Below are positions 3,707 to 54,000 of a stretch of 64,000 nt of DNA, piece after piece. Where the stretch lies: positions 1,736,001 to 1,800,000 of the forward strand of contig OY754475.1 of assembly GCA_963575645.1 (NCBI GenBank). Reading direction: 5' to 3'. Both the position numbers and the translations under genes were made by a program. This DNA is from Xanthostigma xanthostigma. Its lineage: Eukaryota > Arthropoda > Insecta > Raphidioptera > Raphidiidae. The notes beneath the pieces were generated by a model. That model was not told the origin of the DNA. It saw nothing but the letters and a program-made list of their open reading frames with translations, and did not search any database. Each line of letters opens with the position of its first letter. Position 1 is the stretch's first letter.

Positions 3707-4083
3707 TATATTTTTGAAGTAAAAACTTCTTTAGCGGCGTTGTACACTTTTTTTGTAATGGGTAAAAAAAGTTAAACTCGCGTCAGGTAAAGTAAGAACT
3801 GGGTGAGACTCTCTAAGTGATAGTAATTGCCAGATACTTTTTATACAACGTTAGACATCTAGCGTTGAAATATCGTACATAAAAATGCAATCTATGATAC
3901 AAACCATTTTATTTTTTATACAACGTTAGACATCTAGCGTTGAAATATCGTACATAAAAATGCAATCTATGATACAAACCATTTTATTTACAAGTGTTGC
4001 CAATAAATAAACAATGCTTCTAAATGCAAAAAATTAAGACGTTAATATTCAAGTTTTCACTTCTGCCGGCACTCCCGGAGTGC
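3707..4083. mobile_element. MITE with internal 75-bp tandem duplication
   Basis: GAAGT(G)AAAACTT-type inverted ends, with an outer palindrome CACTCCCGGAGTG at the right. A 75-bp block (3841-3915) is repeated immediately after itself. A second copy without the duplication is at 32297-32597. Confidence 0.8.
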
Positions 4084-18786: not shown

Positions 18787-21085
18787 TTCGACAAAGAACT
18801 GCCAGGGCGGCATTTTTGTTTTAAATAGTGTCAAGCAGCAATTTTAATTTTCAATTTTGACTTTCATCAGAAAATTATCAAAACAGTGAAAAGGAAAGAA
18901 CACTTTAAAGCGACATTCTAACGACCATCATCTCCATATTATTACGCCTACCATCACAGCCAGTCTCGCCCGAACAGGATACAGGGGAGCTTTAGCAATA
19001 TATGGGTGTCGCCGGAGGTTAAAGGGTAGAATGATCCAGCGATCTAGTGTCTCCCTAAACCGTTTGCACCATAAATAGTCAATGAAAAACGAATTATTTG
19101 GAGTTGGATCACACTTCGTTTTAATTTCATTTTGAATTGCATGTCGACACATTTTTATTTTACCAGCTCGGCTATTCATGTGTAAAATGTACCTATAGTG
19201 TAGTTTTACATTACTTTTTTACTCAAATTTTTATACAAACCAATTTAAAAAAAATTGCAGATCACTTCATTGTTACCATTTACTTAACCTAGTATCCGAT
19301 GATCGTAGTTCCAATCGTAGTTTTAATACTGCCTGTCATCCTCATTTTTCATGTCATTATAATTTTACTGCAAGGATGTTCGACAAAGAACTGCCGGCGG
19401 CATTTTTGTTTTAAATAGTGTCAAACAGCAATTTTAATTTTCAATTTTGACTTTCATCAGAAAATTATCAAAACAGTGAAAAGGGAAGAACACTTTAAAG
19501 CGACATTCTAACGACCATCATCTCCATATTATTACGCCTACCATCACAGCCAGTCTCGCCCGAACAGGATACAGGGGAGCTTTAGCAATATATGGGTGTC
19601 GCCGGAGGTTAAAGGGTAGAATGATCCAGCGATCTAGTGTCTCCCTAAACCGTTTGCACCATAAATAGTCAATGAAAAACGAATTATTTGGAGTTGGATC
19701 ACACTTCGTTTTAATTTCATTTTGAATTGCATGTCGACACATTTTTATTTTACCAGCTCGGCTATTCATGTGTAAAATGTACCTATAGTGTAGTTTTACA
19801 TTACTTTTTTACTCAAATTTTTATACAAACCAATTTAAAAAAAATTGCAGATCACTTCATTGTTACCATTTACTTAACCTAGTATCCGATGATCGTAGTT
19901 CCAATCGTAGTTTTAATACTGCCTGTCATCCTCATTTTTCATGTCATTATAATTTTACTGCAAGGATGTTCGACAAAGAACTGCCGGCGGCATTTTTGTT
20001 TTAAATAGTGTCAAACAGCAATTTTAATTTTCAATTTTGACTTTCATCAGAAAATTATCAAAACAGTGAAAAGGAAAGAACACTTTAAAGCGACATTCTA
20101 ACGACCATCATCTCCATATTATTACGCCTACCATCACAGCCAGTCTCGCCCGAACAGGATACAGGGGAGCTTTAGCAATATATGGGTGTCGCCGGAGGTT
20201 AAAGGGTAGAATGATCCAGCGATCTAGTGTCTCCCTAAACCGTTTGCACCATAAATAGTCAATGAAAAACGAATTATTTGGAGTTGGATCACACTTCGTT
20301 TTAATTTCATTTTGAATTGCATGTCGACACATTTTTATTTTACCAGCTCGGCTATTCATGTGTAAAATGTACCTATAGTGTAGTTTTACATTACTTTTTT
20401 ACTCAAATTTTTATACAAACCAATTTAAAAAAAATTGCAGATCACTTCATTGTTACCATTTACTTAACCTAGTATCCGATGATCGTAGTTCCAATCGTAG
20501 TTTTAATACTGCCTGTCATCCTCATTTTTCATGTCATTATAATTTTACTGCAAGGATGTTCGACAAAGAACTGCCGGCGGCATTTTTGTTTTAAATAGTG
20601 TCAAACAGCAATTTTAATTTTCAATTTTGACTTTCATCAGAAAATTATCAAAACAGTGAAAAGGAAAGAACACTTTAAAGCGACATTCTAACGACCATCA
20701 TCTCCATATTATTACGCCTACCATCACAGCCAGTCTCGCCCGAACAGGATACAGGGGAGCTTTAGCAATATATGGGTGTCGCCGGAGGTTAAAGGGTAGA
20801 ATGATCCAGCGATCTAGTGTCTCCCTAAACCGTTTGCACCATAAATAGTCAATGAAAAACGAATTATTTGGAGTTGGATCACACTTCGTTTTAATTTTAT
20901 TTTGTATTGCATGTTGACACTTTTTTTATCTTACCAGCTCGGCTATTCATGTGTAAAATGTACCTATAGTGTAGTTTTACATTACTTTTTTACTCTAATT
21001 TCTATACAAACCAATTTTAGAAAAATTGCAGATCATTCCTTGTTACCATTAACTTAACCTAACAACCGATGATCGTAGTTCCAAT
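18787..21085. repeat. Head-to-tail tandem array, four units of 590 bp
   Basis: Units start at 18787, 19379, 19969 and 20559 with TTCGACAAAGAACTGCC. Copies 1-3 are nearly identical; copy 1 has a 2-bp insertion at its start, and copies 2 and 3 differ at about one base. Copy 4 is identical for its first 330 bp, then diverges (about 10%) until it fades at 21085. Each of copies 1-3 contains the same 83-codon minus-strand frame (e.g. 18928-19179); copy 4 has it broken by an indel. The frame has no known relatives that I recognise and is probably incidental. Confidence 0.95.
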
Positions 21086-30802: not shown

Positions 30803-32884
30803 TTATATCTTCGATTCGTCTGGACGCAACTTAACTACTTGTTCGGTCAGTTCCCAGTATTTGGTGGCACGAGCCGGATCACTGGCCGATGTACTCAGCC
30901 CGCGCTCCTTGCAGTCCATAAAATATTTGCCGCTGACGTCGGCGACGTCCTCGGACACGGCCAAATACAGACTGGTCTGCGCGCCTTGAACCGGCGATTT
31001 GAAGAACAACTTCACGATCAAATTCATTCCCCACGATAACGGTACGGGTACGTTGCGCCAGATGCCGCTGTTTATCATTCCGGGATGTAAACAGTTCGCC
31101 GTCACTCCTGTACCTGCAAAATGAATCATTCGTAAGTCCTTATAGATAGTCGTCGCAAACGTGAAACTTTAAGCGAAAACTATTAACACGATTGCAAGGT
31201 CTATGTATGCGCCACGGATCTAAAAGGTTCGGAAGTTAGTTACACACAGCGTCGCAAAATCACATTTTAGAGCCGTTGATACTCCCACCACCTCCCAGCT
31301 ACCTGCATGGAACGTGCGCTCGTCGGTGATTGGCCGTGATCGCTCGTTGCCTTTGTCACTTGTCGCTTTCCTGCTTTAAAGTGCAGTCGAGTACGCTATT
31401 GTCAAGTTGTTATTGCTATGTTAGTTTTGTTGAGTTGCGAGTTTGTAGTTTTTCAACAGACTGTACAAGCGCAAGCCTGCATTCGCATCTAACTTCCGAG
31501 TCTTTTAGATTCGTGGCGGTGTACTATAACAGATCATGGATTCATCGAATAGTGATACTTGCCTTCAAGTCTTCTGGCCAATTCTTTCGTGAAGTATATA
31601 TTGGCGTATTTCGATACGTAGTACAGATAAATCGGGAACGTATTAATTGGATTTACGTTATTGAAGTTCACTGAAGCTAATCGATAAAGCTCTGAAGCTA
31701 CGATGACAACACGACTTGGCGCTGAACGCTTCAATATATCTGTAAATAAAACAAGAATTTAGAAATATTGAAAATTTGATCAGGGCTTTTTTAATTCCAG
31801 CTTTTAGAACGAACTTTTCCGACAAAAATTCAAGACAAACGGGGTCCAATCGTTTATCGTTTATGATCTAAAGTGAAACAGATTATATCGCCTTTGGTTT
31901 AGCCGCAGGGACTGAGATTTTAATCTTAAATTTCGTTTCAAAAGATGTTTAGTTTTGAATGAATAACACAAGAAAACAAACCAATTAGGAGATGAGTCAG
32001 CAGGAATGGTCCAAAATGATTCGTAGCCATTGTCATTTCGAGTCCGTCTTCGGTCACTTGCTTCTTGGACTCCGCTGTACCAGCGTTATGTATCAATACG
32101 TCCAATCTATGTTCGTTCTTCAAGAATTCAGCCGCAAATTCGCGGATCGACTTCTGCGAACTGAGATCTAACTTCATTACGATTACTTCGTTATTCTTTG
32201 ACGTTGAAACTATGTCATCTGAAAAAATACAAAACCTTAATATTTTTGCGAAGTTCACGTTCACGGTTCACGTTATCGAAGTTAACGATATAGGCGTTCA
32301 CTCCGGGAGTGCCGGCAGAAGTGAAAACTTGAATATTAACGTCTTAATTTTTTGCATTTAGAAGCATTATTTATTGGCAACACTTGTAAATAAAATGGTT
32401 TGTATCATAGATTATATTTTTATGTACAATTATTTCAACGCTAGATGTCTAACATTGTATAAAAAGTATGTGGCAATTACTATCACTTAGAGAGTCTCAC
32501 CCAGTTCTTACTTTTCCTGACGCGAGTTTAACATTTTTTACCCATTACAAAAAAAGTGTAGAACGCCGCTAAAGAAGTTTTCACTTCAAAAATATTTCAC
32601 GTGTCTTTACCTCTGGCCACGTTGGCAGTGTTCACGTTCCTGCAGGCCATGATAACCCTCGCTCCTCTTGCGGCCAAGTCTCTGGCAGTTTCTTTGCCGA
32701 TGCCGCTATTGGAGCCCGTCACGATAACCGTTTTGCCGCGCATGTTTGCCCGACTGCTACACTTGCCGCACGTAAGAAAAGCGTATAACCGCAACACGGA
32801 CAGTGCAGTCAGTACGCCGACAGCACCAAACAGTAACAGCCACTGGAGTAATGGACAAGACAAATCCACGCCCAATATTATCAT
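30803..32884 (-). CDS. Retinol-dehydrogenase-like short-chain dehydrogenase (RDH11-14 type), 4 exons
   Basis: NAD(P)-dependent oxidoreductase of the SDR superfamily, closest in layout to vertebrate RDH11-14; substrate not determinable. Coding exons on the minus strand: 32611-32884, 31982-32218, 31563-31739, 30803-31113. They sum to 999 nt (332 aa plus stop), and all three junctions are phase 1. Residues about 11-38 form an N-terminal membrane anchor. The cofactor motif TGSNSGIG is at 56-63, HNAG (usually NNAG) at 135-138, catalytic-type N158, S186 and the YYVSK (YxxxK) motif at 210-214. LHPG and a C-terminal substrate region follow in exon 4. Length fits the family (about 310-340 aa). The intron 3 donor is GC rather than GT. 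Intron 1 is mostly filled by a MITE. A strong acceptor-like tract ends just before the ATG (32886), so a noncoding upstream exon is likely. A polyadenylation signal candidate lies at 30336-30341. The family assignment is firm; the physiological substrate (retinoid or other lipid alcohol) is inference. Confidence 0.93.
32297..32597. mobile_element. MITE occupying most of SDR intron 1
   Basis: Reverse-orientation copy of the element at 3707-4083. It starts CACTCCGGGAGTGCCGGCAG and ends with GTTTTCACTTCAAAAATAT. It fills about 300 of the 392 bp between SDR exons 1 and 2 and stops about 8 bp from the exon 1 donor hexamer. Confidence 0.85.
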
Positions 32885-32949
32885 CCTGGAAAAAAATAAA
32901 TCAATTAATTAAAATCGCCCAGTATAGTGACGTAGCCGGTGCTAGGTCA

Positions 32950-39519: not shown

Positions 39520-41165
39520 CTTGTGACTACTTGCCAAACTGTAAAAATAAAAAAGTCAACAGTGTAATCTAGTAGCGATTTTCTAAGCTCTTGTTTTGAT
39601 ATAAAATCAAACCTCCATGAATTTTGATAATTTTGTGTTGATAATCCCTAATTTATCAGTTGTAGACTTTGCAAATACAGAATTCTTAATGAAAATAACT
39701 TTTTAAAATCAAAAAGGTACCTTATTATGTTAATTTATACTTTGAAAGGGTTAAGTTCACAAAAATATTAATGTTTTAAGTGTTCTTTTTTGTCAAACGT
39801 CCTCCTAAGTAGCTTAGGAGGATGTTTGACAAAAAAGAGCACTTAAAACATTAAAATATTTATGAACATAGCCCTTTGAAAGTTTTAAATAACATAATAA
39901 GGTACCTTTTTGATTTTAAAAAGATTTTTTCACTTAGGTTTCTTTATCTGCAAAGTCTACAACTAGTAAATTAAGATAATCAAAACAAAATTATCAAAAT
40001 TCATGGATGTTTGATCTGTTCTCAAAATATGAGCTTAGAAAAACGCTACTAGATTTCACTGTTGACTCTTTTATTTTTATGATTTAGCAAATGGTCACTA
40101 GATGTCCATAATTGCACTTCCAAGTTTTTCTTTTTATAACAGATCAAACCTCCAATATTTTGATAATTTTGTGTTGATTATCCTTAATTTATAAGCTGTA
40201 GACTTTGCAAATACAGAATTCTTAGTAAAAATATTTTTTTTAAATCAAAAAGGTACCTTATTATGTTAATTTATACTTTAAAATGGTTAAGTTCACAAAA
40301 ATATTAATGTTTTAAGTGTCCTTTTTTGTCAAACGTCCTCCTAAGTAGCTTAGGAGGATGTTTGACAAAAAAGAGCACTTAAAACATTAAAATATTTATG
40401 AACATAGCCCTTTGAAAGTTTTAAATAACATAATAAGGTACCTTTTTGATTTTAAAAAGATTTTTTCACTTAGGTTTCCTTATCTGCAAAGTCTACAACT
40501 AGTAAATTAAGATAATCAAAACAAAATTATCAAAATTCATGGATGTTTGATCTGTTCTCAAAATATGAGCTTAGAAAAACGCTACTAGATTTCACTGTTG
40601 ACTCTTTTATTTTTATGATTTAGCAAGTGGTCACTAGATGTCCATAATTGCACTTCCAAGTTTTTCTTTTTATAACAGATCAAACCTCCAATATTTTGAT
40701 AATTTTGTGTTGATTATCCTTAATTTATAAGCTGTAGACTTTGCAAATACAGAATTCTTAGTAAAAATATTTTTTTTAAATCAAAAAGGTACCTTATTAT
40801 GTTAATTTATACTTTAAAATGGTTAAGTTCACAAAAATATTAATGTTTTAAGTGTTTTTTTTATATGTCATTTTGGACATCTAGTGACCACTTTCTAAAA
40901 TGTAAAAATAAACAGTCAATAGTGTAATCTAGTAGCGTTTTCTTAAGCTCTAATCTTGAGAACATATCAGACCCTCCTGAATTTTGATAATTTTGTGATT
41001 AAAATCAATCATTTAACAGTTCTAGAGTTTCCAAACACAGAATTCTTAGTGAATATATCATTTTAAACTTAAAAAGGTACCTTATTATGTTATTTAAAAC
41101 TTTCAAAGGGCTAAGTTCACAAAAATATTAATGTTTTAAGTGATTTTTTTATGATAAGTCCTCCT
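39520..41165. repeat. Array of alternating inverted arms (foldback family), copy 1
   Basis: Palindromes centred on CCTCCTAAGTAGCTTAGGAGG near 39810 and 40346 have arms of about 290 and 230 bp (shared words GGTACCTTATTATGTTA, TTAATGTTTTAAGTG, ACATCTAGTGACCA). The right-arm plus left-arm block repeats with a 536-bp period. The end holds two further left arms without partners. There is no coding capacity. Confidence 0.9.
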
Positions 41166-41187
41166 AAGTCAGCACATATGTTACATC

Positions 41188-41370
41188 ACTCTAAAGCAGT
41201 CGAAGTAGAACGCACAACGGGTATTTCATGATCTCCTAATACTTCTAAAGCAGAACGCACAACGGGTATTTCATGATCTCCTAATACTTTTCTAAAGCAG
41301 ACCGCACAACGGGTATTTCATGATCTCCTAATACTTCTAAAGCAGAACGCACAACGAATATTCTCATGGT
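41188..41370 (+). repeat. Minisatellite, about 46-bp unit, four copies
   Basis: Units begin at 41190, 41244, 41291 and 41336 with CTAAAGCAGAACGCACAACG, followed by GGTATTTCATGATCTCCTAAT. Unit 1 carries an extra TCGAAGT. It abuts the foldback array. Confidence 0.92.
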
Positions 41371-44289
41371 TTCCTGGTACTTACTGAGAGGGAAGGGGAA
41401 TGGATATTATATTTGTGCTTTTAAAACTAAAACGCTAACAGTATAGGATACTGATTTTGCCCTTTATAACTAAATAATTTCTTTCGAATACTTAATATTT
41501 ACTATTATTTATTTACTAATCAACAAACAGATGGTTATAAATACGATACACTATCACGGCATATTAAATTGGCAAACAATTTTCAAATGAATAATTATTG
41601 TCAGATTTGTGACTGTTTAAATTTAATTAATAATTCAAAGTTTATTTTTAAACATGCTATAATCGAGTCATATTAGTTTTTAGCATACTGTGCTAATAAT
41701 TACCATTAATTACAAAACAAATTTACTGATGTTAGTTAGCATTAAGATTTTTTATTGTCAATAATTTTAAATTTAAATTACTCTGGCACAATACAGTACA
41801 AAGATCACTTAAGAAAAAATATTTAAAAGCACCATTTATCAAAGTAGTATATTAAAGTAGGTACGCATAGAAAACCAACTCCGTATTCAAAGTTATTTAA
41901 TACTTCAGAATTTTTTCAGACATTCAAAAGCCGCTGATATTTATATACAGATATAGACTTTAATCAATAATCAATCAATGTAATATGTACACGAATATAA
42001 ATTATTCAATTGTCCTTCAATATACTTATTATTTACATGCAATTGTTCTAATAAACTCAATTTTATTTATATATATGTAACCCAAATCCATAATATTTAC
42101 ATACATGCCTGTAAAAACATGGGAATTAAATTTAGTAAATGTTAACTTTTTTAGATAAAACAGTAATCTGTACTTTCGTACTCGTCAGAGTCTCGTATAT
42201 TTTGTGTGGGACATAGACAAAGCGTCTCCCGAAATATTGTATGTCTGTCTGTACCAGCTGGACCGATTTTAATGAAACTTTGCACACTATCAAACAATTA
42301 ACAAACCAGCTTTTATCTGGTGCAAATACACGGATAACAATTTGTAGATCGAACTACTTACATATATATGGAACTGTAGGTCAAAAATTTCATGACAAAT
42401 TGTTAGATCCTAGATATATCGACAATTAATTCAATGAATCATTAAATCACAACAAATTAATTAGATGTAAGTTCGACCCTGTCCAAAATAAAAATAGTAC
42501 TACAAAAAATCCAATTTTAAAAACACATTTGTATTTATAATGCAATAATAGAAGAGATAAACATTAAAAAATAATTTAAAAAAGAAAACTAATAGCCATA
42601 AAGCTTTAAGTCGAATTCACGAGACATCCAAAAAAGTTCGAGTTATGGAGTAAAAAATAAATATGTAAACTAATCCAAGCATAAAGATTAATGGTAAAAA
42701 TTTGATTTAAAGGATAATTCGAGCTATGCAAGTTCAACGGTTATTTTAAACACCAAAATTAGTTAATCTATTTCAAAGCTTTAAACCAGATGTAAATTAT
42801 AGATGCTCGACAACATAATCAGTGTGTTGAAGTAGAAACTAATAAGGAATGTGTGTTAAATGTTATAAAAATCATAGTTTGGGGTGATTTCACTTTTTTT
42901 AATTACTGCAGTCGCCCAGAACAGAATGTGTTTAATAATTCACAACAATTCAATACCAAGTCTTGTAAAGTTCAATGTCCTAACACCGCCTTAAATAAAA
43001 CACAATCTACGAAAACAAAACAAGATTATCAAATTAATTCGTTATGCAAATGAAAAACAAACGAGTGCTAATAGTATAAATAAACAAAATCAAAGCAGTC
43101 ACTTACTTACTATATTGGTATCCGTCGTTGATATATTATTGTTTTATAAATGACACGTCTTCGAGGGCACAACATTCAACACAATGCTCAAGAAGACAAC
43201 ACCGGCAACTATATTAACGCGGTACTGCTCACCTGGTCTGATGCCTGGTTTACCTGTCCACCTGAGTTACTTGGCCTACGCACGCATTGATGATCATACT
43301 TATCGTCAGGGATGCGCGGAAAAAAATCTTTATAATACACCAATACTAAGTTGCAATTGCCAGAAAATCTAGTCTTACAACGACCCCTAAAAAGACAGCA
43401 CACCTTATACCAGCACGGACCAGAAAAGCTTGTTCGCGAAAGTACCCATGTAGACCAGCACCTGCAAACATGCAACCGTTTGAGCGAATCGTGTCGGTTA
43501 AAATTATCTGACCAGCAATTTCTATACATGACCGACGCGTATGTACTGATGCTAAATATAAATAAAAACAACGATCGAAAGAAACTAAAGTCTGTACATC
43601 CTTGGTATTCATCAAATCCATGTTCACTGATTTCTATCCAAAGTTGCGCTGACCACAGTATGTTAATTAGTTGGTTCTATACTCAATAAAGATCGCTACT
43701 CCATATTTTGGACAATAGTTAAATAATCCTGGGTAATATTTATAAATATTGAGCAACAACAATGACTTGACGGGCTATAAAGGGAGGGAGAATAAACTTT
43801 AAATAAAAAATGTATTTCGATCGCCGACCGGTGTGTTTGCTAGTAAATCCAAAATGCTTGATCGATATGTATAGCGACCATAAAACTTCCAAGTCCGCTG
43901 AAATCCCGAATTATTTTTTTGGCGATATTACAAGACTTTCTTTAATATTTCTAAGGACCGTGGAACTCGATCCGACATGGCATAAGGCGATAAATAACAT
44001 TTTAAAGTAATAAAATTATAATAATCAATAATCAATAAGTATTTATTTGCAAATATGTATCCAAGTATGTCAATTAGTATTATAAAGGAAAAAAGAAGAC
44101 AGCTTTCTCCTTAATACAATAATGACTTTATTTAATTAAGAAGATAACCAACTTTCTCTCTAATGAATTTTAATTTTTGACTAGACCACTAGACACTATG
44201 GGTACTTACAAAATTAATATAAATAAGCCTTACTTTACATTCTTTACTTTAATGACGCTCGGTTAATTATTAAAGTAAGTTTTGATTGA
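41371..44289. other. No supported gene; ORF-dense patch at 43.2-44.0 kb
   Basis: 43184-43689 is open on both strands in several frames because of a locally balanced composition. None of the frames shows a domain or intron signals. A hairpin-motif copy lies at 42794. 42230-42330 has the transposon-like phrase CCGATTTTAATGAAACTTTG. Confidence 0.4.
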
Positions 44290-45200
44290 TGAGAAAATTC
44301 CAGAGAACAATAAATATTAAATTGTAATATTTTTGAACATTTTCTTTGAAGCATTTTTAATGTGCCATTTTGGACATCTAGTGGACACTTTCTAAATTGT
44401 AAAAAATAAAAAGTCAACAGTGAGATCTACTAGCGATTTTCTAAGCTCTTATTTTGAGAACAGATTAAACCTCCATGAATTTTGATAAATTTGTGTTGAT
44501 TATCCTTAATTTATCAGTTGTAGACTTTGCAGATACAGAAATCTTGGTGAAAATAAGTTTTTAAAATCAAAAAGCTACCTTATTATGTTAATTTATACTT
44601 TCAAAGGGTTAAGTTCACAAAAATATTACTGTTTTAAGTGTTCTTTTTTATCAAACATCCTCCTAAGGAACTTAGGAGGACGTTTGACAAAAAAGAACAC
44701 TTAAAACATTAATATTTTTATGAACTTATCCATTTGAACGTTTTAAATAACATAATAAGGTACCTTTTTGATTTTAAAAAGATATTTTCTCAAAGGTTTC
44801 TCTATCTGCAAAGTCTGCAACGTATAAATTAAGATAATCAACACAAAATTATCAAAATTCATGGAGGTTTGATCTGTTCTCAAAATATGAGCTTAGAAAA
44901 ACGCTACTAGATTTCACTGTTGACTTTTTTATTTTTACAATTTAGCAAGGGGTCACTAGATGTCCAAAATTGCACTTCTAAGCTTTTCTTTTAATAACAG
45001 ATCAAACCTCCATGAGTTTTGTTAAATTTGTGTTTAAAATCCTTCATTTATCAGTTGTAGAGTTTCCAAACACAGAATTCTTATTGAATATATAATTTTA
45101 AACTTAAAAAGGTACCTTATTATGTTAATTTATACTTTCAAAGGGCTAAGTTCATAAAAATATTAATGTTTTAAGTGCTTTTTTTAACGAAAAGTCCTCC
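44290..45200. repeat. Foldback family, copy 2 (left-right-left arms)
   Basis: Paralogous to 39520-41165 in the same orientation. It has the palindrome CCTCCTAAGGAACTTAGGAGG near 44670 with arms of about 300 bp, then a lone left arm. Confidence 0.9.
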
Positions 45201-45221
45201 TAAGTCAGTTTAGGTATTACA

Positions 45222-45325
45222 TCACTCTAAAGCAGCCAAAGTAGAACGCACAACGGGTATTTCATGATCTCCTGATAACTCTAAAGTCGAACGCACAATG
45301 AATATTGTTATGGTTTCCTGATGCC
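45222..45325 (+). repeat. Minisatellite, two units, matching 41188-41370
   Basis: Two copies of the CTAAAGCAG/TCGAACGCACAA unit, ending with the same exit sequence (GAATATT...ATGGTTTCCTG) as the four-unit array. It sits at the same place relative to the foldback arms. Confidence 0.88.
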
Positions 45326-46280: not shown

Positions 46281-49200
46281 ATGGGATCTGTTACAATACC
46301 TACTTTACTCGTTACTGCAAATGTAGGCTCGATTTTTGAAGAGGTAATGTCAATTTTGTATTGTATCTATTATTATTATTACTTTAATTGTTTTCCACCT
46401 GTCCAAGAACGTTTGTTCAGCACGGAATGTTGATATGTACAAGTCCTACTAAAATTTCTCCCTTAATCGAAACGGCTAAGAATATTATCAACATATTTTG
46501 CCAATGCTTTGTGGAAGTCAGCTTGAGAATTCGTCAGTTTGTTACTACGATAGTGTTCATTTTGTGTTTTTGTAGCCATCGGTAATGCTGAAAACATGGA
46601 CAGAAGAATTCCTCTCGACGGTGATACGACTTAACCCAAAATTCATAGCCTTGCATTGTCAAGAAGTCGGAGGCAAAAACTATGAAAAAAGCATGCAGCA
46701 TGTCGAGGAGTTCGTTCGACATCTGATGGCCAGCGATGTTCTACAAGATTTCGACAAGGCTAAAGTGTTTTTAGATGAAGACTTTCGCACGCCAGAAAAT
46801 TTTACGGTGAATATACGTTTAACAACATAAAATAATATGAAAATTGTTAATGTTTATTTTTTAAAACGGTTTCCAGGCACTTGGAAATTTTTATTTTATC
46901 CACGAATCGATAAAAGATGCACTGATTTGGGATTTCAAGAGTTCTAAATTTATGCCGGCTGAAGGAAAAGAAGTCTTTTCTGGGAACATTGAAGATGTAC
47001 CGATAAAGGAAAAAGCTAAATTTCCCAAACATTTTTTTCCAGAGGTAACTTTTGTTTTATAACTACGTAATATCAGGTATTTTAATTACAAAAAATAAAC
47101 AAAACATTTGGAATAGTTCAGCTTTTAATAATGCTCATTTGTTTCTTTACAGTGCAAATGGTCGCGCAAGGGCTTCATGCGAACGCGCTGGTCTCTGAAC
47201 GGCAGCGTGTTCGACCTCATCAACATTCATTTGTTCCACGATGCTTCCAATTTCGTCGCCATGGAACAGTTTCCATCGATCTACTGCCGAAACAGGCGTC
47301 GCGCTTTAGAACATACACTCCACCGATTCCATAGCGATACTTATGGCGCGGCTCCGTTCTTCCTTTTCGGAGATTTTAATTTCCGCACGGATACAGACGG
47401 CGTCGTTAAGGTACGTAAGTAAGTACGTTTTATTTTTGTGTTTAAATTAGTACAGCGAATCGAGCGTCTTCGTTTTCCAACGTTATTTTAACCTCACTTT
47501 GTATGAATTGTTTTTCGTTACCATGGAGATACTGTTTGCGGTTAATATTTAACGACCCGAACACTTCACAATGATAAATTGAAGAAATCTCCGGCCTTGC
47601 GTGTGGTTTATTTATTGTCGCTAATTGAGTTTTAAAATAATGGTTTTGGTTTTATTCAAATTTGTAAACAGAAACTGACAGAGGGTCTCACGACTACCAG
47701 AATACAAAATAACAAAAATAACGACCACACGAAGCTGCAGTATCACGATGACAGCAGCCAACTCGTTCTGACTGTCGGGAAGAAAGAATTCACACATTCA
47801 GATCACCAGGATGTCTTCCTGAAAACTGACCATAATGCATGGGTAAGCTACTTGAACAATAAAATTTGTTATACGATAGAAGATTCCCACAAAATGAATT
47901 TATAGTTTTTAAACAAACCGACAATAACCTGTTTTCACAAGAAAAATGCCTTGGCCAGAATTCCCGACGCTATATTGAATATTTTTTAATTTGCAGCTGC
48001 GGGAATTCGATCGTGAGCTGGAAGCATTCGATAAACAGCTCCACGAGTATCCTATAACGTTCCCGCCGAGCTATCCGTTCGAGGAGAGCGTCAAAGCGGC
48101 CACGAGTTACATGCATACCAGGTGCCCCGCGTGGTGCGATCGTGTTTTGTTGAGTACTACGGCCAAGCAACTCATTAGTGATGAGTTTCCTGTGGAATAC
48201 GATTTGTTGGGCTCGAATTCCTGCATGGGTGATCATAAGGTAATTTATTATTGCTTGTTGCGTTCTTTAAAAAGTATTTTAACACTGTGCTAAAGAAAAC
48301 ATTTTTTAAAATCGTATAAATAAATTGTCGCCACAATATTTCTTTTCGTGAAAGACAACTAACTAAACTAGTTACAATAACCATCGATTAAAATATACTT
48401 TAATTGATGATATAACTCATCTTTGGTTTACGAAACATACGTAACGAACAATGAGAAATTTATTTTGAAAATGTTGCGTATCTGTAATGATCATGATTAC
48501 TATTATTGCTGGTCTATCTATCTCTCTCTTTGCCCTGTCAAACAAACGCAGCCAGTCTATCTGGATTTTCACCTTCTTCTGTAAATCTAAAGGTACAAAA
48601 TATTACCACTTTCGTGTTTTGTTTTTATATTAGTTGTTCACATGACACTCAGTTGTTTTTATTTTGTTATGTTTCCTTTTGAAGTAAAGAAGTGAACCGT
48701 TTAATCCAGAACGATATAATTTTTGTTTTTATTGTAATTCGACAACTGTATCTAATCTAAAACTTCGATATAAAACTAAGTTCGTTAAAATCGAAAACAG
48801 ATAATTGTCAGCATCGATTTCTCCAAATGTAATTTTTAACAGAAATTATGTCATTCTATAAAGATTTAAAAGACACTTCTATTTCACACGTCTGAAAACC
48901 CATTGTTTTAATTTACAACCAAATATCATGTTTATAATTTCTATTTTACATTAGCATGCTTTAATCTAGTCACAAATCATCAAAAAATAGAACTAAATGC
49001 ATGGTGACCCATTTGTACATTTTTCCAAAAGTGTGGCAAAAATCAAATGAAAAATTAAAAGAAAACGGCATCTAAGCACTTCATTTATTTACTTCCATTG
49101 TGTAAGAAAACATTGTTCATTTGGGTTTCATTATTTAGATGCTAAAATAGATGATCACAATTTTATTACCCGATTTATAACCTAAGAGGTTATTTTTGTG

Positions 49201-51045
49201 TATTCACATAGACGCTTTGACTACACCATATTTACATCGACGATATGTTCTCAGCGTCCGGAAGTATATAACGGACGGATATTTTAGGTTATGTCACAGA
49301 CATGCGCAATCCGCAATCTCAACAAGAGTCGTTGTCTTACACGATAACAGTTTTCAGACTCGTTGCTATTTGACAATCTTTCACGACTTCCAGATTGCGT
49401 AATGCGCATGTCTGAAAGTATAGAACTGTTCGTACATCGTCATAAATAACGATATAATTCTTACACGCCGTCTGAATGTTCACAGCCAGTTTTCTTGCGT
49501 CTGGATTTGATCGGCAACTCAGGTAGATTACAATGTTGTACGCATCCGTCTGACTGTAGCTTGTACCCCGTAGTCACCCCGCTGCCGCACTCTCCTTCGT
49601 GTGTTTGCTGTAATAATTACGCTGCTTCAGTAACTATTAACGTAGTAGATTTGTCTGACGATAACGATATGTACATTAACGATTGCCGACCGACCGTCGA
49701 TGCGCATTTGCTTCACGAGCCTTACGATGCGCATCGAGACGAACCTTACACGCCCGAGAGCAGTGACTCTCGTTCGCCGAGAGACGATACCGATGACGTC
49801 TACGTATTTCCAGATCGGATCGATTACGATAAACGTAGATTCATCAATCTCGATATATTATCTAGTCAGAGGGATTGCGGAAGAAGTATCGGTAGAAATA
49901 TAACGGACAGTCGAGACGTCGAAGGTTTCTCGAAATATATGGACAAAAATCTGTTGCACGAACCGATCGGAGTCACGAGAGACGATCCTTACACTCCGGA
50001 AAGCATTGAATCGCATTCTCCGTTTCCGGTCACGGAAAACGACGATAATGTACCGTCCAGCGATTCGGATTACAACAGTTTGACGCAGCAAAACACTTCT
50101 GTTTCGCCTGAAATGTTGAAATCCCGTCTAGAAATTATTTTGAGCTCTCCGAAAAACGAATGCGCTATCATCGACGATGAGTCGGCGTCATCGAAACAAT
50201 TGAATGACGATTCAATGTTTTCTGACAACCTGAATACAAGTTCGGGTATGGTCTTGCCAAATCTCAGTTTTGATAAATCGGACTCGACAAAAACGCATTT
50301 AGACACCGGTACGAACAAATTAGAACCGATTTTAAGAAAATGTCATATAATGAAACGTAGTGATTCGTTCAGTACTATTTTGAATAGTATAAAGTCAAAA
50401 ATATCTCATCGTAGGAGCAAGTCTTTAAATAAAAACAAAGTGGAAGACAATGGGAAAGGATCAAAACTACGAAATTCGTATCCTGATATAAGTACAATGC
50501 ATTCAATGTCAATTAACGATAGAACTTTAAAAATTTCTACAAAAACGGACCTTTTCAATGCTTGGTTTCATTCAAATATTAACGATATTAAGAATTTTTT
50601 GACAAGTGAAAACGAAAATAGTGAAAATTTTATTGAAAGTAATTGTTTTGAAGACAGATCTGTAAAACAAGATGTTTACAGTGCAGTAAGTAGTGACCAA
50701 AACAGTGATTCAAAAAAAGAAATTAGTTGTAGTAAAATGACGATTCCTTGTAGTAAAAAAAAACATTTGGGAAATAGTGAAAAAGTGACGTCTGAAACAC
50801 TCGAATGTGTCGAAAATAAAATTTTGGATTTTGAAATGAACATTTCAATAAAAGATAATACTAATAGACCTAACGAAGAATCGCTAAGCTTTGAAAATAA
50901 ACAGTCTTTAATGTCTCTAGTACCGGTTCAAAATTCCAACGACAAAAATAATATACAGTTAGAGAAAAGAAGTAGAAAAAAAAGAAATAGTAGTGTTAAT
51001 AATTTTAAAAGAAAACGGAAACTTTGCTTTTGCTGTCTATTATGA
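46281..51045 (+). CDS. INPP5A: Type I inositol polyphosphate 5-phosphatase (INPP5A) with long C-terminal extension
   Basis: Hydrolyses the 5-phosphate of Ins(1,4,5)P3 and Ins(1,3,4,5)P4, ending calcium signalling at membranes. Exons: 46281-46343, 46576-46806, 46877-47044, 47153-47410, 47672-47842, 47997-48239, 49486-51045. All junctions are phase 0 with GT/AG sites, giving about 897 aa. Recognisable family segments are LLVTANVGS (N-terminus), ALHCQEVGGKNYE, FPECKWSRKGF, NIHLFHDASN, catalytic FGDFNFR (226-232), CPAWCDR (340-346) and GDHKPVF (375-381). The usual protein is about 410 aa. Here exon 7 runs on for about 505 further residues: Cys-rich, then acidic/Ser-rich with a duplicated LLHEP...PYTPES motif, then Asn/Lys/Ser-rich with a basic tail. 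It still finishes in CCLL, a CaaX box (the mammalian enzyme also ends in a CaaX box). ATG context AATCACAATGG. AATAAA at 51475-51480 suggests a 3'UTR of about 430 nt. Enzyme identity is certain; the extension's role is unknown. Confidence 0.95.
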
Positions 51046-54000
51046 TTTTCAAATAATTTTGGTTTTTTTGTTGTTATATTTTTGTTAACTCGCTATTCCC
51101 GTTAGTGTTTATTAAATTAGTTGACCGTAATTTGTTGTATTTATTTTGTTTTAAGCATGATTATTGTTTTTTTTTTTATTATTATTATTGTCGACTTTCT
51201 AGCTGTGATTATCTATTTGAGAGATGCATTTGTTTTAAATTAAATTGTTTCCACCGAAACGTTGTTTCAGTTGTTTTATAAACAAAGATACCATTAAAAC
51301 AAATGAATCTCTTACAACACTGAACCTTATTATAGTATAGTTTGACTGTGATCGCTTGAAATTAGGCTCACCGATTAAACCCAACGGCTACCAACAACTT
51401 CGAACGACTGACTTGAAAACAAATGAAGGCGGAAATAGTGCTACATCCGGTGTCGCCATCACAAGGTACATACAAATAAAAAATGTTACCGAAACACCAT
51501 TTAAGATATTTAAGGAAACAACTGTTTAATTCGATGTTGTTATATTATTTATTATATATTTATTGAGTGTTTATAATATTGTAATGTACAGGGGCCACTT
51601 TGATTTTTATATCGATGTACGCTATTTAAAACTAGGTTTTTGTATTAAGATTTATAAAAAGAACCAATAATATCACAGTTTCCTGCTTGAAGAATTGTGT
51701 GAACAATCAATAGGGAACTTTTATGCTTTAATCGATTGCTCCCCGAGAAATGGAAAAATTATGAATTGTTTTTTTCAACTTAGTGAATACCTGGCAGTAA
51801 GATGGCCTTTTTTTTAAAAAAAGCATGCAAGTTGTCTATTATATTTTTAATATGTCGTGTTCGATTAAAAATAAGATTTTTGTAGTTCTAGACATACTTA
51901 AGAACAATCCAGAAATATCCGACAACTAGAGATTAAGATAGGTATGATAAAGACCAATTTTTTTAATTTAGATATTTTTAAATTGAAGGATTGAAGGACT
52001 TACTGTTTTATGGATCTTTATTTACAGTATTAAATTGATATTAAATACAATAAAATTAGTAGCTCAGATTTGTTGGCGCTAAATGTCATATATGGCTAAG
52101 GTATACAGTTTATCTATTATTATTATAATATAATAATGATGGTAGGATGTAGGCTTGCCTGTAGAAATTCAAGTGTTTATTGACAATAATTTTTTCTTAA
52201 AATGGTTCCCCTGTACATCTGTAGTGCATATCATATTCCATGTAAACAAAAAAGAAAAATTACGAGGTTCAGACTAATTTTGTGTGCCTACTGCCATTCA
52301 GGATCGTGAATATATTTTTTATTGGGAAACACAATTTTTTTTGCATTCTCCCATTCCCCAATTTAGAGACATAATTCCAAATTCGTCTTTGAGACCTCTT
52401 GTAATGAAGAAATAAAAAAATTGAACTATTTTCATAAACATGTGAGTCCGTTTTTTATAAAATTTACGATTAACAAATCAAGCCGAGGGAAACAAACTAA
52501 AAATATTATCTTTCGTCACAACTTAGTCTGAATGTAACTTTATTCTTAAATAAAAAGGCATAGGTACGCGGTTTTTATCGGTCAAGTACAAATGATCAGG
52601 GCTGTCCTTTAAAGGCCCCGAGAACTTTAAAAATCGCTCCATTCGTAACACCACATTAATCGTGTGCTGCTAAACAATTGTGAATCGCTACAAGAAAAAT
52701 TGTTGCTTTATGAAATGCGACAGTCGTTTGCTCACAAAGATACAAAATCCATAGCTGTTAAATGTTTATTCTACAAATAACTGTCTTAATTGTTAATCTA
52801 TAAATGTACTCCGCTACCAATTCCCAATTCTGCTCACAAATCAATTTTTGACTTGCCGTTAGTTCCGCGGGGAAATTGGAAATACGGCAAAAAAATTATT
52901 TGTGAACATCGCTTCCGTCCATTTTCATTACAAATTAAAATTTGAAATTTCGAGCCTGCATTCGGAATTGATTTTTGGGGAAAATAAACACATTTTTTAA
53001 TGGATCGGTTAGAACAGGGTATTTTTATAAAAAGTTTTCATTTTTATAATCGGTTCTGAGGCTGGAATGGAATTAAATTTTTAGATAAAAATCAGCGCTA
53101 CACAGATCAGTGTATATAAATATTATAGACGCTGGATAACAAAAGTCAGAACAGTACATAACGTGGTCATCCCGCACAACGTGATTTTGTTCTGACGTAA
53201 AATAAATAAAATATGTATTCGTTATAAGTTGAGAGTATCGAAACAAAATCGAAGTCAGATTTTCAAAAGAGTAGCTGGTGATCGTTTTTTACATTCCCGT
53301 TTACCTGAAGTCAGTTCCGGGTGCATACTTGATTTTCATTGCAGGGTACAAAAAAACAAATGCATTAAATTAGTAAGCTATTCTTGCCGTATCGTTAAAG
53401 GCAATTTAATTACTGCTTTCTCATTGGCTTGTATTGAAAATGGTCTATCAAGTATACAGACTTGAATTTATGCAAAAATACTTTACTCGAATTATTTAGT
53501 AGTCGTCGATGTTTAATTGATATTTTGTAAATGTAATAAGAATTAATATGTGGAAATTGAATGTTCCATTGTTCGTAATAATTATCCAAATATTTATGTG
53601 TCATTTATTGCTATCGGAACCTTTGTTAATCATCTAAAATTATCTTGTTATAATTTTTGTAATGAAAAAAGTCGTTTACTGTAAATTTCAATCTAGTTTT
53701 TTATATTTTAGAATTTTATATATTGTAATATTTTTTTATCGGAGTTAATTATTTATATTAGCTATAATTGTACGTATTTTTACTTAAAAAAAAATTATAT
53801 ATCTATTTCTCAGTTCCGTTCATACGTTCTATATTTTTTTATCAGTTCGAGGTTAGAACTTAGAACTCAGAAGTTGCTATGGTAACAATGTAAGCAGCAA
53901 CGTTGCTATGAACTCTTTCTTTATTTAGAGTGTTTCAATAATTGAAAACTATACTATTTGAACTATACAGGGTGTTTTTTCAAACGTGGGTTGTCGCGTA

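Follow-up and report, generated by a model that had tools for sequence, protein, structure and literature searches.

The 64,000-nucleotide stretch of Xanthostigma xanthostigma DNA analysed here (the window) contains a gene that we read as encoding a type I IP3 5-phosphatase (INPP5A-like) with a real tail of about 509 residues, for the most part disordered, which lies entirely in the last exon and ends in a Ral-type CaaX anchor. We give this reading a probability of roughly 0.72. It is built on the structure of the gene, on an open coding frame that runs to the end of the last exon, on a duplicated and constrained motif within that frame and on the CaaX box that closes it. Presence of the whole tail in the mature mRNA, its disorder, its lipidation, its tethering role and its phosphorylation are predictions.

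Gene Structure and Family Assignment

The gene has seven exons, all in phase 0 and with GT/AG borders, and encodes a protein of 897 amino acids. Exon 1 (46281..46343; this and all other features of the gene are on the + strand) begins at a start codon inferred from the sequence, carries MGSVTIPTLLVTANVGSIFEE and is translated in frame up to a GT donor. The 5-phosphatase domain is distributed over exons 2 (46576..46806), 3 (46877..47044), 4 (47153..47410), 5 (47672..47842) and 6 (47997..48239), each assigned by in-frame translation. Exon 4 contains FGDFNFR, and two PDB relatives could be weakly aligned with it; exon 6 contains TRCPAWCDRVLL and GDHK and falls in the best stretch of the Pfam match to PF22669 (residues 298-382). 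Exon 7 (49486..51045) starts after the acceptor ...gttcacag|CCAGTTTTC, is in frame with exons 1-6 and ends with the stop codon TGA at 51043-51045. Acceptor, stop and frame thus agree exactly with the limits that the earlier note had assigned to the last exon. The first ten codons of exon 7 (49486..49515) encode the last conserved block, PVFLRLDLIG, and the PF22669 match continues past the GDHK|PVF junction as far as residue 382.

Residues 1-388 make up the catalytic part with the 5-phosphatase domain, for which PF22669 scores 57 bits against a gathering cut-off of 27. This part carries the 5-phosphatase motifs FGDFNFR and CPAWCDRVLL. Judged by its sequence, the 897-residue protein is an inositol polyphosphate 5-phosphatase. 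Among PDB sequences the catalytic core gave weak matches to INPP5K (E 0.0012), SHIP2 (E 0.0056) and the phosphatidylinositol phosphate phosphatase 1i9y (E 0.0072); none of the three is named INPP5A, and all three belong to other subfamilies. Our assignment of the protein to type I (INPP5A) is an assumption based on the human sequence, and it coincides with the view taken in the earlier note.

The surroundings of the gene contain several further features. Related fold-back repeats, together with copies of a 45-base unit, occupy 40000-41400 and 44362-45320 (the search began at 40000); their arms of 163 bases are 84 and 88% complementary and lie 3 bases apart (40183-40511 and 44505-44833), and the repeats stop about 1 kb upstream of the start codon of the INPP5A-like gene. 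A short-chain dehydrogenase gene lies on the - strand at 30803-32908, with the frame 32600-32908 matching adh_short at 32.2 bits (cut-off 26.6) and the frames 31938-32267 and 30803-31168, the latter without a Pfam match, appearing by eye to be further dehydrogenase exons. At 18806-20875 there is a tandem array with a 590-base period and copies starting at 18806, 19396, 19986 and 20576. A 300-base reference from the array occurs in four copies that are 99-100% identical, and an identical 96-codon frame is found three times on the - strand (18928, 19518, 20108); the array looks like a satellite or a recent tandem duplication. At 3838-3989 a 75-base unit is duplicated perfectly in tandem (2.0 copies, 100% matches). 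Downstream of the INPP5A-like gene, the first AATAAA after the stop is at 51475..51480 (+ strand), a possible poly(A) signal that as a motif is not evidence of use, and four ATTAAA motifs lie between the stop and this position (51111, 51239, 51293 and 51374).

The Last-Exon Extension Is Coding

All of the extension is encoded by the last exon, downstream of PVFLRLDLIG (49516..51042). The earlier note had described a frame that stays open for about 505 more codons; the frame is indeed open, and the count is 509. The enzyme grows from 388 to 897 residues, which bears out the statement that the extension more than doubles it. Using a dinucleotide model with the extension's own composition, 33.5 stop codons would be expected and the probability of an open frame, P(open), comes to about 9e-16. 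Taken separately, the first 228 codons (GC 0.46) give a P(open) of about 9e-06, and the last 281 codons, an AT-rich second part with a GC of 0.30 (50200..51042), give 1.2e-10 at their own composition. The other frames of the extension are full of stops (32 and 65 in the forward, 26, 14 and 26 in the reverse frames), and the next longest stop-free run within the 64-kb window is 155 codons; that the frame is open beyond chance expectation is therefore well founded with P(open) about 1e-15.

The extension also has the three-base periodicity of coding DNA. The period-3 chi2 of the whole extension is 50.4, compared with 15.0 +/- 6.0 (maximum 34.2) in stop-free simulations, none of which was as high (0 of 500). 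Divided into thirds, the extension gives a modest signal, reached by 6, 13 and 5 of 500 stop-free simulations, and in this it resembles the conserved exons 4 and 6, whose values were reached by 5 and 16 of 500 simulations. Since the open frame is improbable and the periodicity exceeds that of stop-free simulations, the extension is coding.

When compared with its own assembly (623,323,696 bases in 28 contigs), exon 7 gave a single match at E <= 0.001, which is itself, all seven of seven candidates having been scored. The exon 7 protein matched no Pfam family at E <= 1 and had no pattern match in a viral contig collection, and the best match of the extension among PDB sequences (E 0.064) is without meaning. 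The exon 4 protein gave 19 pattern matches in viral and 116 in prokaryotic contigs, none of them confirmed by tblastn, as expected there.

The gene might nevertheless produce two forms, with exon 7 mostly removed in some transcripts, either as an exonic intron or by use of an early donor and a hypothetical downstream exon, such that the long tail would belong to one isoform. This would be compatible with our preferred reading, and we consider it unlikely. In its favour, the scores of GT dinucleotides at 49523, 50246 and 50309 equal or exceed that of the gene's weakest real donor under a generic, hand-built donor matrix, and many AG dinucleotides in exon 7 score like the gene's weakest acceptors. 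However, all three GT sites are in phase 1 whereas the six introns of the gene are all in phase 0, GTs of this kind occur three times in a downstream stretch of equal length and once in intron 6, and the coding signal spans the whole of exon 7. We favour retention of the complete tail in the mature mRNA, which would place all 509 residues in the protein.

A Duplicated Motif under Constraint

The first half of the extension contains a motif of 24 residues, LLHEPxxxxRD(E/D)PYTPESx(D/E)SxSP, that is present twice, 81 residues apart. Copy 1, LLHEPYDAHRDEPYTPESSDSRSP, is at 49708..49779 (+ strand) and copy 2, LLHEPIGVTRDDPYTPESIESHSP, is at 49951..50022 (+ strand), 81 codons downstream; the pair was assessed by repeat score in a self-alignment, by pS/pN and by neutral simulations. 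The ungapped self-score of the repeat is 95 over 34 aligned residues, whereas the highest score among 200 shuffles was 63. Eighteen of the 34 aligned residues are identical, and 12 of these 18 are encoded by different codons.

Over the 24-codon core of the motif, pS is 0.73 and pN is 0.22, with a bootstrap interval of 0.22 to 0.78 for the difference; in the two wrong frames the order of pS and pN is reversed. A shorter core of 16 codons gives a pS of 0.60 and a pN of 0.17, with 0.65% of the bootstraps at or below zero. Synonymous sites between the two copies are therefore near saturation while the protein has been kept. Because the core had been picked by protein similarity, we included the same choice of window in neutral simulations, in which an 81-codon unit was diverged to 60 and 66.7% nucleotide identity (levels of our own choosing) and the best 24-codon window was taken by protein similarity (n=2000). 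The observed pS-pN difference was reached in 8 of the 2000 simulations and the observed similarity score in 14 of 2000.

Compared over all 81 codons of the register, the two units show little resemblance (39.9% nucleotide identity, pS 0.78, pN 0.55), and constraint as a repeat is thus confined to about 24 residues. These results support constraint at the protein level on the duplicated motif, which lies in the first half of the extension, and outside the motif the evidence supports coding status. The earlier note had proposed selection on the whole extension; for the duplicated motif this agrees with pS/pN and with the simulations, but the wider claim goes beyond the evidence, which for the rest of the extension consists of the coding signal.

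The C Terminus and Its Predicted Lipid Anchor

The protein closes with a basic run, KRKRK, and the terminal residues LCFCCLL (51007..51042, + strand), as established by translation. Its last eight residues are K-L-C-F-C-C-L-L, of which the K ends the basic run, and the last four, CCLL, are a CaaX box with a final Leu, an ending of the GGTase-I type. The terminal CaaX box has thus been kept, as the earlier note maintained. Counting the first box Cys as position -4, further cysteines are located at -6 and -3, and the residue directly before the box is Phe. The terminus is not of the human type, in which X is Gln and a palmitoylated Cys stands directly before the box, as X is Leu and Phe precedes it here. 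There are five K/R among the 12 residues before the box, which is below the preset threshold of six or more. Residue shuffles give a CaaX-like ending at a frequency of 0.0060 and a GGTase-I-like ending at 0.0012. Among the stop-terminated frames of at least 20 codons in the window (n=2122), 24 have CaaX-like and 4 have GGTase-I-like endings, the INPP5A-like frame included.

One study tabulates the box CCLL of RalB as 20C prenylated (PMC7674641). Human INPP5A ends in CVVQ and, as described in PMC12450637, is farnesylated on C409 and reversibly palmitoylated on C408, with both modifications needed for proper targeting; the tumour variant Q412L is argued there to swap farnesyl for geranylgeranyl (PMC12450637). 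For the Cdc42-palm box CCIF, the first box Cys is reported to be prenylated and the second palmitoylated, and the same source reports that this box is usable by both prenyltransferases and that laboratories disagree on the interplay of prenylation and palmitoylation (PMC9868626). The type of box alone consequently does not fix the lipid. Since CCLL is the 20C box of RalB and the human CVVQ is farnesylated, geranylgeranylation of CCLL here, i.e., a 20-carbon anchor, is a sound prediction, and the preference of CCLL for geranylgeranyl put forward in the earlier note is supported by the RalB listing and by the Q412L precedent. The switch from farnesyl that the note also proposed would presuppose a farnesyl-type ancestor among insects and is a hypothesis. 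By analogy, Cys(-3) or Cys(-6) are possible candidates for palmitate acceptors.

Composition and Predicted Disorder of the Tail

The extension is rich in Ser (14.9%) and contains 9.6% Asp, 9.4% Asn and 7.7% Lys. In successive blocks of 50 residues its net charge is -3, -10, +1, -9, -4, +6, +4, -6, 0 and +7, with +2 for the last nine residues; four of the first five blocks are negative, and from there on the charge is mixed to positive. The description of the linker as acidic and Ser-rich therefore applies fully to Ser and only in part to the acidic character. FoldIndex falls below 0 for 83% of the residues in the extension compared with 32% of those in the catalytic part, suggesting that the extension is probably an unstructured, flexible linker, as had been supposed. 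A single-sequence AlphaFold2 model of the exon 7 protein has a mean pLDDT of 33.5, with a few short helices and two strands; without an alignment such a value is weak evidence, being low for many folded proteins too, and is compatible with disorder.

Potential phosphorylation sites were counted against shuffled sequences. SP/TP sites number 8 compared with 4.9 +/- 2.0 (91 of 1000 shuffles as high), which is no clear enrichment. Basophilic sites (11 against 13.2; 813 of 1000 as high) and CK2-type sites (13 against 15.6; 815 of 1000) are not enriched in the extension. The human enzyme presumably has a 14-3-3-type site, for which we considered RSxS-like sites in the extension as a stand-in; these are not enriched either (2 against 1.1 +/- 1.0 in shuffles; 314 of 1000 as high) and this candidate was dropped.

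Base composition changes sharply within exon 7. Around 50200-50400 the GC content, 0.46 at first, drops to about 0.28, and GC3, initially 0.48, to about 0.21; downstream of the stop the value is similar, at 0.29. The tail may therefore consist of two parts that differ in age or constraint. One form of this idea is that the first part is old and constrained and that the AT-rich final 230-280 codons were gained recently and almost neutrally from what used to be 3' UTR, the CaaX box having arisen by chance, which would be compatible with a two-isoform gene. The fall in GC and GC3, to near the value after the stop, is in line with it, as is the fact that the selection test covers the first part of the tail only. 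We nevertheless regard it as improbable, since the AT-rich part has a P(open) of 1.2e-10 even at its own composition, the last third of the tail shows periodicity (its value is reached by 5 of 500 simulations) and a GGTase-I-like ending, here preceded by KRKRK, has the low frequencies in shuffles (0.0012) and window frames (4 of 2122, this one included) given above. That the extension is an artefact, produced by a frame left open by chance, by misassembly or by fusion with unrelated or mobile sequence, would fit its lack of a known domain but is very improbable given a P(open) of about 1e-15, the constrained repeat, the continuous frame with the PVFL block and the fact that exon 7 matches only itself in the genome. 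Chance origin of the frame and derivation from a repeat were each rejected, by P(open) and by the single genome match. The alternatives overlap with one another and with the reading that we prefer, and our confidences in them do not sum to one.

Proposed Mechanism and Implications

INPP5A terminates IP3-driven calcium signals, and its location in the cell depends on the lipidated C terminus. In the preferred reading, a genuine long tail with a Ral-type anchor, CCLL would be geranylgeranylated on its first Cys (-4), and the KRKRK run would add electrostatic affinity to acidic lipids of the inner leaflet. Palmitoylation of Cys -6 or -3 could replace that of Cys408 in human INPP5A. The tail itself would act as a long tether, allowing the catalytic domain to reach IP3 far from the anchor, e.g., across a plasma membrane-ER junction, and the two PYTPES motifs and Ser-rich stretches may be sites of docking or of phosphorylation through which the position or the activity of the enzyme is adjusted.

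It is tempting to speculate, although we hold this to be doubtful, that an insect lineage rebuilt the enzyme, exchanging the short farnesyl/palmitoyl tail for a disordered arm of some 500 residues under constraint and a Ral-type geranylgeranyl/polybasic anchor. IP3 would then be destroyed at a defined distance from the membrane, with phosphorylation control exerted via the duplicated PYTPES. If true, the change of anchor would parallel, as a natural case, the one argued for the human tumour variant Q412L. An arm of about 500 residues combined with a different predicted lipid would make the effects of distance and anchor on calcium signals directly testable, and would show that a terminal lipid anchor can persist while the length of a protein more than doubles.

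We found no account of a long INPP5A tail in the partial texts available from the literature on INPP5A. INPP5A of Bombyx appears as one table row, without mention of a tail in the accessible text (PMC7013401), and tail length is likewise without mention in the excerpts of PMC4924639, PMC8301844, PMC9960318, PMC6399161 and PMC4967334, of which PMC9960318 and PMC6399161 treat the type II enzyme. Gene predictions in sequence databases may well already contain the long tail.

Comparison with Known Systems

Human INPP5A, to which we relate the protein on the presumed type I assignment, shares with it a 5-phosphatase core, a C-terminal CaaX box and an extra Cys nearby. In contrast, the human enzyme, as described in PMC12450637, ends at Gln 412 without a long tail, whereas the protein described here has 897 residues with a 509-residue tail; the human box closes with Gln (farnesyl) where the present one has Leu, and the human palmitoylated Cys adjoins the prenylated Cys, a position taken here by Phe with cysteines at -6 and -3 instead. 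The catalytic core, through its weak matches, resembles INPP5K, SHIP2 and the 1i9y phosphatase, and this likeness is confined to the core, the tail being without a match. Cdc42-palm, with CCIF, has two adjacent box cysteines as well, according to PMC9868626, but is an unrelated protein in which X is Phe, and dual lipidation of CCLL would by this analogy be conceivable here. RalB ends in the same four residues, CCLL, tabulated as 20-carbon prenylated (PMC7674641); it is a small GTPase, and the resemblance is thus one of the anchor only.
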